Source: an uncultured Erysipelotrichaceae bacterium
GTDB lineage: Bacteria; Bacillota_I; Bacilli_A; Erysipelotrichales; Erysipelotrichaceae
Assembly: GCA_900315065.1 (NCBI GenBank)
Contig: OMXQ01000013.1
Coordinates: 1-40,017 of the forward strand
DNA length: 40,017 nt
Direction of reading: 5' to 3'
The notes beneath the pieces are model-generated. The model was not told the DNA's origin, did no database searches, and saw only the letters and a program-made list of their open reading frames with translations. The position numbers and the translations under genes were made by a program. Position 1 is the first letter of the stretch; each line of letters starts with the position of its first letter. Positions 20,841-39,549 of this stretch are shown in pieces.

Positions 20841-20870
20841 TTGAATGCAGGATTCTTACAGGAATAAAAT
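20841..20870 (+). promoter_or_regulatory. Promoter of the large GGDEF-EAL gene
   Basis: TTGAAT at 20841-20846, an 18-base spacer and TAAAAT at 20865-20870 predict a start near 20877. The possible start codon at 20845 lies inside the -35 of this promoter, so translation more likely begins at 20920. Confidence 0.5.
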
Positions 20871-20919
20871 ATTGGCAGAAATATTCAGGCATGCGAAAGT
20901 TTCTTTCGGGGGAAAGCTT

Positions 20920-23900
20920 ATGGCAGTGATGAAATATGGTGCATTCAGGTCCAGCGGCGAAGTCGTTTCCTGTGAAGAGATCAATCGTGAAAAGTTTACG
21001 GCGTGCATGGATGAATTGAGACTGCTGATGATGAAAGCAGGTAAAGAGAATGATCCTTCGGCAGCTGTGAATGTTTTTCTGGAACAGCTGGCTGGTGTTT
21101 TTCATGCGCATTATCTTCTGATGTTTGAAAAAAATCCAGTCAATCGTTTTGATTGTACTTTCTGTGTCAAAGACGGAAAGAATACCATTGATAAAGCAGG
21201 TCTCCAGAATATGCCGGGGAGTTATTTTCTGGAATTTCTGGATGCTTTTCGCGATTATAAGGGCTATATTATTGCGGATCTGGAAGCTTACAAAGCAGAA
21301 AATGAGCACGTGTATGCTTTTCTGAAAGAAAATGAGATTCACGAAATCGTGTCTTTCCCGATTATCCAGAAGGGCGAGCTGATTGGTTTTACCTGTCTGG
21401 GTAATTTTGATGAAGAGTACCTGGATATTACGGCGATGCTTTTGGGATTGGCTTCCAATTTCCTTTCTCAGGAATTGAGATTGAGAACCAGTCAGGGTTT
21501 CATTGCAGAGCAGGCAAAGCGCGACGGGCTGACCGGCTTATATAGTGCAGATGCTTTTGAGCATTCTCTGGGTTTGTTTATCAGTGCCTTGCATGCAGGG
21601 GTCAGAACCGGCAAGTGGGACCTGGTCTGCCTGAATATTCATAAGTTCAAGGCTTTCAACAATGAACATGGTTTTGAAGCAGGAGATGAACTGCTGCAGA
21701 ATTTCGGTGAAATCCTGAAGAATGCATTTCAGACAGATATAATTACCCGGATGATGGCAGATAATTTTTATGCCGTCATCGAAGATGAAAAAGCCGAAAA
21801 TGCTGTGAAAGGCATTGAAGCGGAAGTAAAAGAGAGAACCCATAATACAGTTTCCATCTATACCGGTATTTATACATTGACTGGCCAGGAGGAAGAAAGC
21901 GGCCTGGCAATGGATCGTGCCAAGATTGCTGCGGATGAAGCCGGCAAGAATTATGCCAGAAGTCTCTGTCGTTTCAATTCTTCCCTGGAAGACAAGTTGA
22001 GAATGGATGCGTATCTGATCGCGCATCTGGATGAAGCAATTGAAAATCATTGGATCAAAGTGTATTACCAGCCGGTTGTCGGTACCTTGTCAGGCAAGAT
22101 TTCTTCCGTGGAAGCATTGGCAAGATGGGATGATCCGGATTATGGTTTCCTGACCCCGGATAAGTTTATTCCGGTATTGGAAAATGCAAGGCTGCTGTAT
22201 AAGCTGGATCTTTATGTATTGGAAGTTGTCTGCCAGATAAATGCGGAGTCAATCAGAAGAAAACAGAGATACGGGCATTCTTCCGTCAATTTATCCCGTG
22301 GTGATCTGCATCTGCCTGATCTGCATGAAAGAATCAATGCGCTGATGGCGAAATACAAAGTTCCGCATGATTCCGTGCATTTTGAAATTACGGAAACCGT
22401 TCTTTCGGAAGATGAAGATGCAATCAGGGAACATATCAGAAGATTCCATGAAGATGGGTATGAAGTCTGGCTGGATGATTTCGGTTCCGGTTATTCTTCT
22501 TTGAATACATTGCATAATTTTGATCTTGATTGTGTCAAAATCGATATGAAGTTCATGCGGACCCAGAATGAGCGGATCCCGATTTTAATGCGTTCCATTA
22601 TTGATATGGCAAAGCATCTGGGCATGTTAACGCTGACGGAAGGCGTGGAAACCCGCGAGCAATACAATTTCCTGAAGTCAATCGGGTGTTCCTTCGTTCA
22701 GGGCTATCTGTATTCAAAGCCGGATACATTGGAAAATCTGATGAAGCGTGAAGATCTGAGGGCAATCGGAGAAGAAAGTCCGAAGGAAATTATTTTCTAT
22801 CGGCAGATTGCCAGGGTCAATGTCCTGAATTCCTATAATCCGATCGGCGGGGATGTAGAAGAAATTCCGCGTGCAATTCTTCGTTTTGATGAAGATCAGG
22901 AAGTTTTCCTTTATACCAATGAACAGTTCCGCAGGTTCTCGGCAAAGATCCTGGGCCATGCCTGGACAGAGTGTGATAATAAGCTTCATGATCAAGGTGT
23001 TTTATATCCGCATTTCAAAGCAATGGCAGATGAGATTTCCAGATCAAAGAAGAGTGCTGCCTATGACTTTGCGGCAAACGGCATGACGGGCAAGTTGTCC
23101 TTTGAATTTATTGCGGATTATCTGGGCCAGAGGGCTTTCTATGTCCGGATTATGAATCTGGAAGAATATCATGCTTCAGCAGAAAGCAAATTCAGAATGA
23201 TTCAGTCAGTATTGAGTTTGTTTAAAACGGTCGGTATCGCTTCGCCAGAAGAAAACAGGTTCCAGGTTCTCTATGGGACCAATATCGGTGCCGGCCGGAT
23301 GGAGAGTCTTGCGCTTTCCAGTGCGTTGGATCATTTCATGGATAAATATATTCCGGAAGATGAACATGAACGATGCCGGGAATTCATGGATATCAGGACA
23401 ATCAAAGACAGATTGGACAAAACACCGCAGGGTGTGATCAATAGTTTCTTCCATCTGCAGCAGCAGGATGGTACATATGATTGGACCAGATTTGTCATCA
23501 GCCGGCTGAAAGTAAATCAGGAAGTTGAGCATTATCTGGTCGGCTTTGGCAGAAATATTGTCGGCTGGGATCAGGCAAGAGTCAGAAATCTGATGGACAG
23601 CGGCAATGTGCCGGCAGATATTGCCTCTGTTTATGAAGGCGATAATTCCATGCAGGAAGAAGCTTTGTGGCATTCATTGATGAGGCAGGACAGACTGGGC
23701 ATGTTCTGGAAAGACAGGAACCGGCGTTTTGTCGGGGCAAATCATGCTTTTTTGAAATACTATGATCTTGATCTGCAGGATCTGCTCGGCAAAAATGATG
23801 AAGACATGAAGTGGCACCCGGATCCGGAACCTTTCCGTCAGGATGAATTGGCAGTTCTGAATGAAGGCAAAGTGATCAACGAAGCAGTCGGTGAGTGCAT

Positions 23901-25380
23901 TGTCCAGGGAGAAGTCAGAAAGATCATGGCTTCCAAGGTACCTGTTTATAAGAATGGTCAGATTATAGGTCTGGTCGGGTATTTCGTCGATATTACCAAT
24001 GTGGCTTCCATTGCCTCTATTTACAATGCAAAGGAAAATACCGACAGGCTGACTGGTCTTCTGAATAAAAACGGCTTCTGGGAAGTTTCCCGCAAAGCAT
24101 CTGAAGCTTACAGCAGGGGCGGTTCTGATTTCGGCATGTTGGAATATCAGGTGGTCGGCACAAGACGATTCCGTGATTCCTATGGTTCTGAAAAATATGC
24201 GGCATTGCTGAGGGCATTCTCTGAGAAGATCAAAGAAGCAGTTCCGGAGAATAGCTATGTGTCTCATGGCTTCGGTGGCAGGTTCAATGTCATGGTGCCG
24301 TGTCATGATATGTCTGAATTGATGCAGTACAAGGCAGAAGCTGATGCGGCTTTGTCAGGTATTCATGTGATTGGCAGGGATACCCCGGTTACCGTTTTCT
24401 TCGTTTCCGGTGCTGCGCTTTACAGCGACTATCTGGATCTGAGTGAAATGAGAACGGCAGCTTTGCGAAGTATGGTGGAAGCAGAGACACTGGACGGCAA
24501 TATCCTGAGTGCAACCGGGAGAAAATCCTACAACCAGCAGGAAATCAGGTCTTATATCCATACTTTGCGCAAGTGCTTCGATATTGTAAGGCTGGTGGAT
24601 CCGATTCATCTTCATTGTCTCCACTTTGACAATAACAAGCTGATCATGAGTGATGATACCTGCTTCAGTGTCTGGAATAAGGAACAAAGATGTTCCAACT
24701 GCATTTCGGCCAAGGCGATCAGTGAAAACAGAAGATTTACCAAGATTGAAGAAAGAAACGGAGATATTTTCTTTGTCATGGCGAATCCGGTCGAAGTCAA
24801 CGGCAGAATCTGCTCGCTTGAGTGCGTAGCGGAAATGACAAACATTGTGCTCAATACGGAAGATTCACTGATTTCCAAGAAACAGCTGGATGTTCTCAAG
24901 GACAAGGTATACAAGGATGCTCTGACCGGCACCTTCAACAGAAGATACTACGAGGAAGTTGCCAAGGGCATGTTCTGTTCAGCCGCAGCTTTCATCGATG
25001 TGAATGATTTCAAGATCTTCAATGATGGGTTCGGTCATGAAGCTGGTGATGAGACATTGCGTAAAGTCGCAGAGGTTCTGCTCAGAAATGTCAGAAAGAC
25101 AGATGCAGTGATCCGCTATGGCGGTGATGAGTTCTTCCTCTTCTTCAGAGATCTGTCAAACAAGGAAGTCTTTGCTGAAAAGCTGAATACAATCCAGAAG
25201 GAAATCAATGAAATCAGGATAACAAGTGCACCTGGTGTCAATGTCAGCGTCAGTATCGGTGCCATCATGGACTTCAATACAGTCGCAAAACTTGTACATC
25301 GTACGGACAAGCTGATGTATGAAGCCAAGAAACAGAAGAATCATCTGACCATACTTGAGCCGGAAAAGAAGAAAGTCTGA
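20920..25380 (+). CDS. Very large GAF-GGDEF-EAL-PAS-GGDEF-Cys-rich PAS-GGDEF protein
   Basis: About 1,486 residues, soluble. Order: GAF-like sensor (~40-190); a degenerate GGDEF (~199-355) with ADNF replacing the active-site motif; an EAL phosphodiesterase (~364-602) keeping EALARW, NLSRGDL, EITE, DDFGSGYSSL, KID, EGVET and QGYLYSKP, so probably active; a weakly defined PAS-like region; a PAS domain (~914-1028); a second degenerate GGDEF (~1042-1150, FGGRF); a PAS-like module with His/Cys clusters (HLHCLHF, RCSNC, ICSLEC; ~1216-1314) that may bind metal or heme; and a C-terminal intact GGDEF (YGGDEF near 1401) with an RKTD inhibitory site five residues before it. It can be predicted to both make and break c-di-GMP. 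Start: 20920 has GGGGGAA upstream; 20845 is an alternative. Confidence 0.9.
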   Translation: MAVMKYGAFRSSGEVVSCEEINREKFTACMDELRLLMMKAGKENDPSAAVNVFLEQLAGVFHAHYLLMFEKNPVNRFDCTFCVKDGKNTIDKAGLQNMPGSYFLEFLDAFRDYKGYIIADLEAYKAENEHVYAFLKENEIHEIVSFPIIQKGELIGFTCLGNFDEEYLDITAMLLGLASNFLSQELRLRTSQGFIAEQAKRDGLTGLYSADAFEHSLGLFISALHAGVRTGKWDLVCLNIHKFKAFNNEHGFEAGDELLQNFGEILKNAFQTDIITRMMADNFYAVIEDEKAENAVKGIEAEVKERTHNTVSIYTGIYTLTGQEEESGLAMDRAKIAADEAGKNYARSLCRFNSSLEDKLRMDAYLIAHLDEAIENHWIKVYYQPVVGTLSGKISSVEALARWDDPDYGFLTPDKFIPVLENARLLYKLDLYVLEVVCQINAESIRRKQRYGHSSVNLSRGDLHLPDLHERINALMAKYKVPHDSVHFEITETVLSEDEDAIREHIRRFHEDGYEVWLDDFGSGYSSLNTLHNFDLDCVKIDMKFMRTQNERIPILMRSIIDMAKHLGMLTLTEGVETREQYNFLKSIGCSFVQGYLYSKPDTLENLMKREDLRAIGEESPKEIIFYRQIARVNVLNSYNPIGGDVEEIPRAILRFDEDQEVFLYTNEQFRRFSAKILGHAWTECDNKLHDQGVLYPHFKAMADEISRSKKSAAYDFAANGMTGKLSFEFIADYLGQRAFYVRIMNLEEYHASAESKFRMIQSVLSLFKTVGIASPEENRFQVLYGTNIGAGRMESLALSSALDHFMDKYIPEDEHERCREFMDIRTIKDRLDKTPQGVINSFFHLQQQDGTYDWTRFVISRLKVNQEVEHYLVGFGRNIVGWDQARVRNLMDSGNVPADIASVYEGDNSMQEEALWHSLMRQDRLGMFWKDRNRRFVGANHAFLKYYDLDLQDLLGKNDEDMKWHPDPEPFRQDELAVLNEGKVINEAVGECIVQGEVRKIMASKVPVYKNGQIIGLVGYFVDITNVASIASIYNAKENTDRLTGLLNKNGFWEVSRKASEAYSRGGSDFGMLEYQVVGTRRFRDSYGSEKYAALLRAFSEKIKEAVPENSYVSHGFGGRFNVMVPCHDMSELMQYKAEADAALSGIHVIGRDTPVTVFFVSGAALYSDYLDLSEMRTAALRSMVEAETLDGNILSATGRKSYNQQEIRSYIHTLRKCFDIVRLVDPIHLHCLHFDNNKLIMSDDTCFSVWNKEQRCSNCISAKAISENRRFTKIEERNGDIFFVMANPVEVNGRICSLECVAEMTNIVLNTEDSLISKKQLDVLKDKVYKDALTGTFNRRYYEEVAKGMFCSAAAFIDVNDFKIFNDGFGHEAGDETLRKVAEVLLRNVRKTDAVIRYGGDEFFLFFRDLSNKEVFAEKLNTIQKEINEIRITSAPGVNVSVSIGAIMDFNTVAKLVHRTDKLMYEAKKQKNHLTILEPEKKKV

Positions 25381-25398: not shown

Positions 25399-25425
25399 AA
25401 CCGGATGAAATATCACCCGGTTTTT
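25399..25425 (+). terminator. Terminator after the large GGDEF-EAL gene
   Basis: AACCGG-A-TGA pairs with TCA-C-CCGGTT (one mismatch) around AATA, then TTTTT. Confidence 0.7.
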
Positions 25426-25442
25426 ATGTGAGACGGATATAA

Positions 25443-25472
25443 CAAAAAAGCATCAGCTTTGGGCTGACGCTT
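25443..25472 (-). terminator. Terminator of the small minus-strand gene
   Basis: On the minus strand, AAGCGTCAGC pairs with GCTGATGCTT (10 bp, one G-U) around CCAAA, followed by TTTTTT. The stem begins at the stop codon of the 25471-25722 gene. Confidence 0.8.
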
Positions 25473-25722
25473 AGAAATCGTAGTGTTTCAGAAGATACCT
25501 TCCGGTTAATTCCTGATAGAACCAGGAACCGCGGATCATTGTCCTGTCATCCCATCTTGATCCATCACAGCGGAATTTCAGAATGGACTGACCATGTTCA
25601 AGGATCTGTTCCTGCCTGATTCCCTCAAGCCAGATCCTGCGGCAAAGAGACCAGTTGACAATGACCATGTCGTTCTTCTTTGAAGCAGATTCGATTTTGA
25701 GATACTGTTTTTCTTTGTTCAT
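25471..25722 (-). CDS. Small soluble protein of unknown function with a self-complementary leader
   Basis: 83 residues, rich in Arg/Lys and Trp (WSLCRRIWLEGIRQEQIL, DGSRWDDRTMIRGSWFYQEL), no membrane segment or signal peptide. No family recognised. It is real by context: a consensus-like promoter with exact 17-base spacing, a GGAGGTG ribosome binding site and its own terminator. The start is the ATG at 25722; a GTG two codons earlier overlaps the ribosome binding site. The start codon can be paired by the leader (see the leader feature), so translation is probably regulated. Confidence 0.7.
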   Translation of the reverse strand: MNKEKQYLKIESASKKNDMVIVNWSLCRRIWLEGIRQEQILEHGQSILKFRCDGSRWDDRTMIRGSWFYQELTGRYLLKHYDF

Positions 25723-25792
25723 ATTCACCTCCGCGCTTACTGCGCATCCGAAGCACTATAAAAAAAGTGCTTCTTTCTAACGTGAATATGAA
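25718..25792 (-). promoter_or_regulatory. Leader fold that hides the start codon of the small gene
   Basis: On the transcript (minus strand) the stretch from 25792 to 25782 (TTCATATTCAC) is the exact reverse complement of 25728-25718 (GTGAATATGAA), which covers the end of the ribosome binding site and the ATG. The 11-bp helix encloses a nested hairpin AAGCACT/AGTGCTT (25772-25751) and a short GCGC stem just before the ribosome binding site. This is the geometry of a translational switch; the trigger is unknown. Confidence 0.5.
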
Positions 25793-25818
25793 TGCAAAGC
25801 ATTCCGCTTTGCGCTCGT

Positions 25819-25847
25819 ATTATGCCTCGGGAAAAAAGAAAAATCAA
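25819..25847 (-). promoter_or_regulatory. Promoter of the small minus-strand gene
   Basis: Minus-strand TTGATT (plus 25842-25847), 17-base spacer, CATAAT (plus 25819-25824); predicted start near 25812, giving a ~90-nt leader with a GCAAAGC/GCTTTGC hairpin at its 5' end. Confidence 0.65.
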
Positions 25848-25895: not shown

Positions 25896-26744
25896 ATGAA
25901 GAAAATCACACTGAAAGACGGAACTGAAATTCCGGTACTGGGACAGGGAACCTGGTACATGGGAGAAAATCCTGCAAAAAAAGAACAGGAAATTGAAACC
26001 CTCCGCTGGGGCATTGAACACGATATGAACTTGATCGATACAGCTGAAATGTATGGAGAAGGGGCCAGTGAAGAACTGGTCGGGGAGGCAATTGCCCCGT
26101 ATGACCGCAGTAAATTGTTTATTGTTTCCAAGGTTTATCCATGGAATGCCGGCAGAGATCATATATTCCAATCCTGCCGGAATTCTCTGAAGAGACTGGG
26201 CACAGACTATCTGGATATGTATTTATTGCATTGGCGGGGTGATGTGCCTTTTGAAGAAACAGTTGATTGCATGGAGGAACTGGTTGAAGAAGGCCTGATC
26301 AGAAGATGGGGTGTATCCAATCTGGATGTTGATGATATGGAAGAATTGCTGGATGCGGGCGGTGACAACTGCATGGCTGACCAGGTTCTGTATCATCTTG
26401 GCTCAAGAGGAGCAGAAGTGGAATTATTGCCATGGCTGCAGGAACACCAGATGCCGATGATGGCTTATTGTCCATTAGCGCAGGCAGGCAGATTGAAGGC
26501 TTCTTTGTTACAAAATCCGGAAATACAGAAAGTGGCAGACAAGCACCATGTTACAAATGTGCAGATTCTGCTTGACTTTGTATTAAGCAGACCGTATACA
26601 TTCACAGTGCCAAAGGCTTCTTCTCTGGAACATGTCAAAGCCAACCGGGCAGCCGCAGATATCATCCTGGATGAGGAAGATCTGAAGAGACTGGATGCAG
26701 CTTTCCCGAAGCCTGCTTATGTCAATGGTCTGGATATGGCCTGA
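25896..26744 (+). CDS. Aldo/keto reductase
   Basis: 282-residue NAD(P)H-dependent oxidoreductase with the (beta/alpha)8 fold. The catalytic tetrad is present: Asp48 and Tyr53 in LIDTAEMYG, Lys79 in IVSKVYP and His112 in YLLHWRG. MPMMAYCPLAQAGRL is the family's later signature, and VPKASSLEHVKANRAA the cofactor phosphate site. Length and motifs fit the short AKR subgroup of Firmicutes. Substrate cannot be told. It is divergent from the small minus-strand gene and has AAGAGGAAA upstream of the start. Confidence 0.9.
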   Translation: MKKITLKDGTEIPVLGQGTWYMGENPAKKEQEIETLRWGIEHDMNLIDTAEMYGEGASEELVGEAIAPYDRSKLFIVSKVYPWNAGRDHIFQSCRNSLKRLGTDYLDMYLLHWRGDVPFEETVDCMEELVEEGLIRRWGVSNLDVDDMEELLDAGGDNCMADQVLYHLGSRGAEVELLPWLQEHQMPMMAYCPLAQAGRLKASLLQNPEIQKVADKHHVTNVQILLDFVLSRPYTFTVPKASSLEHVKANRAAADIILDEEDLKRLDAAFPKPAYVNGLDMA

Positions 26745-39132: not shown

Positions 39133-39549
39133 ATGAAAAAGAATAACAAGAAGGGCTTCACATTAGCAGAATTGTTAATTGTAGTAGCTATCATCGGTGT
39201 TCTGGTGGCAATCTCGATTCCGATCTTCACATCGCAGCTGGAGAAGGCGAGAGAGGCGACTGACCTGGCTAATATTCGTTCTGCTTATGCTGAATGTTCG
39301 ACAGCTGTTCTTACTGGTGAAGCGGATGCAGATGTTAAACCAGCTAAAGACACGGAAGGTAAAGACACTGGCGCTTATTCTAAGAGCGTTGAGATTAGTC
39401 AGACTAAGGCGGACTGGCTTGATTCTAACAAGGATGTAAAAGTGGCCGGAAAAGCAGTATCTACTTTTAAGTGGAAACCTAAGGATGGAGCTAACGGTTC
39501 TGTCACCGTCACAGTTAACAAAGATGGTACGTTTGATGTAACACAGTAA
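39133..39549 (+). CDS. Type IV pilin
   Basis: 138 residues. The basic leader MKKNNKKG is cut by prepilin peptidase between Gly8 and Phe9, leaving the mature FTLAELLIVVAIIGVLVAISIPIF helix start with Glu at mature position 5, which is needed for assembly. Only one cysteine is present (Cys49), so no disulfide-bounded D-region. The C-terminal ~90 residues are Thr/Lys/Asp rich with a beta-strand pattern (VTVTVNKDGTFDVTQ). AAGGAG precedes the ATG. Probably a major pilin. Its own promoter and terminator flank it; no prepilin peptidase gene is in the window. Confidence 0.92.
   Translation: MKKNNKKGFTLAELLIVVAIIGVLVAISIPIFTSQLEKAREATDLANIRSAYAECSTAVLTGEADADVKPAKDTEGKDTGAYSKSVEISQTKADWLDSNKDVKVAGKAVSTFKWKPKDGANGSVTVTVNKDGTFDVTQ

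Follow-up and report, generated by a model that had tools for sequence, protein, structure and literature searches.

In the hla mRNA of Staphylococcus aureus and the rpoS mRNA of E. coli, an upstream arm of the leader pairs with the translation initiation region, and a trans-acting RNA (RNAIII and DsrA, respectively) is able to displace it. Masked ribosome sites are also found in the mRNAs of type I toxins, for example tisB (PMC7708055), aapA3 (PMC6733600) and timP (PMC11228461), several of which are opened by 5′ processing or refolding. A similar logic is proposed here for an 83-codon orphan gene on the minus strand of a 40,017-nucleotide stretch of DNA from an uncultured Erysipelotrichaceae bacterium (contig OMXQ01000013.1; the whole stretch is called the window below). 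The proposed layout, an arm of the leader on the initiation region, would be that of hla/RNAIII and rpoS/DsrA, with no candidate trans RNA known at this locus.

Results

The upstream arm (25792-25782, minus strand) reads TTCATATTCAC, and its exact complement, 11 bp with no mismatch, lies at 25728-25718. Both the sequence itself and a search of the window bear out the perfect match between leader and start region that had been claimed in an earlier note on this DNA, and within the window the arm sequence occurs in these two copies only, even when one mismatch is tolerated. The nested hairpin said to join the arms is likewise present in the fold, with 8 bp formed by GAAGCACT and AGTGCTTC (25773-25766 and 25757-25750). 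The 11-bp pairing runs from the final base of the Shine-Dalgarno (SD) sequence through the spacer and the ATG into the beginning of codon 2. The earlier description placed the helix on the last bases of the ribosome binding site and on the ATG; it covers the ATG and the spacer, but of GGAGG the last base only. What had been missed is that pairing resumes past a 2-nt bulge (25794-25793), where CTTTG (25799-25795) meets CAAAG (25717-25713); with the bulge and these 5 extra pairs the helix may reach up to 16 bp. The features of the locus are collected in Table 1.

Table 1. Features of the leader and of the small gene, with the basis on which each was assigned.
Feature	Position	Strand	Basis
Candidate promoter TTGATT-17-CATAAT; predicted transcript start near 25812	25819..25847	-	pattern scan
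Predicted 5′-terminal hairpin GCAAAGC-GGAAT-GCTTTGC; its 3′ strand may alternatively pair with codons 2-4	25794..25812	-	folds
Upstream (masking) arm TTCATATTCAC	25782..25792	-	sequence, pattern search; prefix folds
Predicted nested hairpin GAAGCACT-TTTTTTAT-AGTGCTTC, juxtaposing the arms	25750..25773	-	folds
Predicted small hairpin GCGC-AGTAA-GCGC, adjoining the SD on its upstream side	25733..25745	-	folds
Shine-Dalgarno GGAGG, last base only in the 11-bp helix	25728..25732	-	sequence
Downstream (start-codon) arm GTGAATATGAA, with ATG at 25722-25720	25718..25728	-	sequence, search
CAAAG, 5-bp extension of the helix with CTTTG 25799-25795 over the 2-nt bulge	25713..25717	-	constrained fold
83-codon orphan ORF (MNKEKQYLKIESASKKND...LLKHYDF)	25471..25722	-	translation
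Predicted intrinsic terminator of the small gene, beginning in the stop codon; 10-bp stem, then T run	25448..25472	-	pattern scan

To judge how rare such a match is, it was compared with 85 further gene starts, taken from the window and from related loci, at which the longest exact complement between leader and start was at most 8 bp. Among 200,000 random leader/start pairings, 11 bp was attained in a fraction of 0.00013 (1.3 × 10−4). By our own arithmetic, this rate corresponds to an expectation by chance of about 0.5% per window (some 35 genes) and of about 0.3 matches per 2.5-Mb genome. The match had been called unlikely by chance; for one gene the probability is negligible, and given the breadth of the scan the 11-bp match is notable and not extraordinary. 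Total duplex energy (RNAduplex) is a less striking measure, being equalled by 2% of random pairs, and therefore the claim rests on the perfection of the match, its position and the overall fold.

At −42 kcal/mol (z = −4.94), the minimum-energy fold of 131 nt, which has the 11-bp helix in it, was matched in stability by none of 200 shuffled sequences. The computed cost of opening the initiation region is 17.8 kcal/mol, as compared with 8.0 ± 3.3 kcal/mol (maximum 15.8) for the 85 other genes, which makes it the highest of the 86. In the fold model of the full-length RNA at 37°C, the ATG is unpaired with a probability of 0.001. For GGAGG the mean unpaired probability is 0.34 at the same temperature; the SD core is left about one-third unpaired because the helix takes only its last base. 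When the arm was removed in silico, the opening cost fell from 17.8 to about 6 kcal/mol. With 5′ truncation to 25786 or beyond, the unpaired probability of the ATG rose from 0.001 to 0.7-0.98, and opening the start cost 9.1 to 5.7 kcal/mol. Taken together, sequence and energy models support well a predicted masking of the start codon by the leader.

The order of events was followed by folding a growing 5′ prefix. It can be seen that, first, the 5′ hairpin and the nested hairpin form, with the arm single-stranded until the start region is transcribed; secondly, the 11-bp helix closes once the start region is present. The CTTTG/CAAAG extension competes with the 5′ hairpin: when forced, it gave −40.5 kcal/mol against −44.0 kcal/mol for the unforced fold, and without the first 7 nt it becomes part of the minimum-energy fold.

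Upstream of the leader, TTGATT-17-CATAAT is the best −35/−10 pair on the same strand in the interval between the two genes, and the transcript start predicted from it would be the first base of the 5′ hairpin. The earlier note had called this promoter good. It matches the consensus at 9 of 12 positions, and two such sites were found where 1.1 are expected, a frequency near chance. On the opposite strand, a promoter-like TTGAGA-17-CATATT (25697-25725, plus strand) overlaps the start of the small gene, with its −10 element within an arm of the inverted repeat; such a site also occurs at chance frequency. An antisense RNA made from it would cross the leader in the direction of the aldo-keto reductase gene at 25896. 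Beyond the other end of the small gene, a second terminator-like stem lies at 25399-25422, and with its plus-strand T run it would serve as terminator of the gene at 20845-25380, so that the terminators of the two genes would converge between them. The latter gene (plus strand) encodes an unusually long protein of 1511 residues, which by eye has the look of a multi-domain cyclic-di-GMP enzyme (GGDEF- and EAL-like motifs).

A good SD, a terminator of its own and its rarity in shuffled sequence make it probable that the 83-codon ORF is a real gene: when the 515-bp gap was shuffled, an SD-ATG ORF of such length arose in 4 of 5000 cases. Of the SD-ATG ORFs in the window with 50 codons or more, nearly all are evident genes or in frame with them; two, this one included, occupy an intergenic gap on their own. 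(Another lone SD-preceded ORF, of 138 codons, is found at 39133-39549 on the plus strand.) The codon usage score is intermediate: it exceeds that of 98% of wrong-frame segments, but 99.5% of 83-codon stretches from neighbouring genes score higher, and because of the latter value the coding status is probable and not proven; the pattern is as in recent acquisitions or young genes. Inspected by eye, the protein looks soluble and charged, with no obvious hydrophobic membrane segment. Structure prediction gave a poor model (mean pLDDT 59), whose matches in the PDB were set aside as noise.

No homologue of the protein was detectable across more than 1,000 sampled genomes, among them its own, 100 relatives and samples of the genus, family, order, class and phylum. 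Contigs of named genomes, viral contigs, plasmids, phages, the PDB, Pfam, NCBIfam and PHROGs yielded none either, and a PADLOC profile search gave no convincing match. Several matches were rejected: the best one in the order sample (G026) sits inside another gene, one in the phylum sample (G710) runs across two stop codons, one on a Thauera contig (43% over 35 residues) was judged to be chance, and one in phages (26%, E 0.5) was unconvincing. As for the leader, a covariance model, which was built on a single sequence and may miss a strongly diverged leader, found this locus alone convincing among 70 genomes of the genus and 309 of the order; one weak match in the genus was not reproduced on its own locus. 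DNA searches with the leader found no relatives, a distant DNA search in plasmids and phages found none either, and the exact arm pattern was absent from the viral contigs. Upstream of the nearest aldo-keto reductase homologues (about 51-74% identical) the sequence is different and gives no match to the leader model, and homologues of this gene in the genus have upstream regions unrelated to the leader's. As far as these collections show, the locus is species-restricted. Neither the protein nor the leader yielded a relative in which conservation or covariation of the arms might show.

Discussion

We favour a reading in which the leader masks its own start codon and the full-length mRNA is OFF for translation as long as the arm is neither removed nor captured, and we give it a probability of roughly 0.45, somewhat short of even odds. 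The locus would be a self-contained minus-strand unit of about 375 nt, with a promoter near 25847-25819, the orphan 83-residue gene and a terminator at 25472-25448, and the leader would contain a built-in antisense arm. During transcription the 5′ hairpin and the nested hairpin would form early and leave the arm 25792-25782 free; as the start region emerges, the arm would zip onto the spacer, the ATG and codon 2 in a helix of 11 bp (up to 16 bp, with one bulge). OFF would then be the default state of the full-length mRNA, and release could come from 5′ processing, from a downstream transcription start, or from a trans RNA or a protein that captures the arm. Selection may keep such a structure in place. 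Points against this reading are the near-chance match of the promoter, the position of most of the SD core outside the 11-bp helix, the low codon usage score of the ORF, the roughly 0.3 such matches that chance predicts per genome, and a search for relatives that brought up none. The switch idea of the earlier note, with temperature, ligand or protein as trigger, is retained as to the masking by the leader, which sequence and energy models favour, but not as to the temperature and ligand triggers (see below); a protein- or RNA-triggered switch is possible. It is a plausible, modest orphan case with control of a known kind.

The arms might instead be a chance or neutral inverted repeat: they would pair in the RNA without being under selection for any regulation, and the orphan gene would be young or in decay. 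We consider this less likely, although it agrees with the orphan state and atypical codon usage of the gene, with the absence of the leader from the 70 genus and 309 order genomes searched, and with a duplex energy equalled by 2% of random pairs; in addition, about 0.3 matches are expected per genome, and the locus was picked out of a wide scan. Against this, the match sits exactly on the ATG and continues for 5 bp more past the bulge, the whole fold has a z of −4.9, and none of the other 85 genes has so high an opening cost.

It is also conceivable, but quite doubtful, that the main transcript has its start within the leader, with TATAGT at 25760-25755 as one possible −10, and that an mRNA free of the arm is translated constitutively. 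This −10-like element lies inside the nested hairpin, and a 5′ end at 25757 would bring the opening cost to 5.7 kcal/mol (a normally spaced TATAGT start would fall some nucleotides further down); the upstream TTGATT-17-CATAAT, for its part, is near chance frequency. However, the best −35 element available to TATAGT matches at 3 of 6 positions with a 15-nt spacing, and the upstream pair is better.

Within the masking reading, a more elaborate form seems improbable, namely an undescribed two-state leader in which the 5′ hairpin GCAAAGC/GCTTTGC competes with the extended arm CTTTG/CAAAG reaching codons 2-4. Loss or capture of the first nucleotides would lock the start further or release it, and a previously unknown small protein would be controlled in this way.

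There is very little chance that the locus resembles a type I toxin-antitoxin system, with an inactive full-length mRNA and a plus-strand antisense RNA transcribed from TTGAGA-17-CATATT (25697-25725) over the leader. An inactive full-length mRNA activated by processing is typical of the class (PMC11228461; also PMC6733600), and the promoter-like site does oppose the leader. On the other hand, that site is at chance frequency and could serve the aldo-keto reductase gene instead, there is no family match in the profile libraries, and the protein, inspected by eye, looks soluble and charged rather than like a short hydrophobic membrane peptide.

Least credible of all is control of the ORF by a metabolite riboswitch or an RNA thermometer. 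The arrangement, two hairpins enclosed by a stem whose 3′ strand holds the start, is like an OFF riboswitch, but the stem is very stable with no ligand, and no Rfam family reached its gathering threshold, the weak matches at a loose threshold being noise far below the cut-off (an RsmY-like match inside the ORF, E 0.04, scored 17.6 bits where the cut-off is 57 and was put down to chance). Metabolite aptamers are normally widespread, whereas this leader occurs once, and a metabolite aptamer is disfavoured for that reason. As in the thermometers ROSE and FourU, a leader helix lies over the initiation region; unlike in these, the helix is a perfect one of 11 bp in a fold of −44 kcal/mol, with no Rfam match. 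In the model, the unpaired probability of the ATG does not exceed 0.007 between 20 and 60°C, and a thermometer was rejected on this modelled melting.

The masking reading brings the locus closest to the type I toxin mRNAs, whose start region, in the nascent or the full-length transcript, is also closed by a leader structure and whose unit is likewise short and of a single gene. It differs from them in that its product is an orphan, apparently soluble protein of 83 residues, the organism and protein being unrelated, and in that the helix covers the ATG more than the SD. On the antisense side there is a promoter-like site at chance frequency, and membership in the class is not supported, as no hydrophobic peptide is evident. 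The general importance is limited by the lack of a known protein function or of relatives. If the masking reading is correct, the locus would represent a compact, default-OFF translation of a species-restricted small protein by a control best known from type I toxins, and would show how an orphan gene stays silent from transcription onward.
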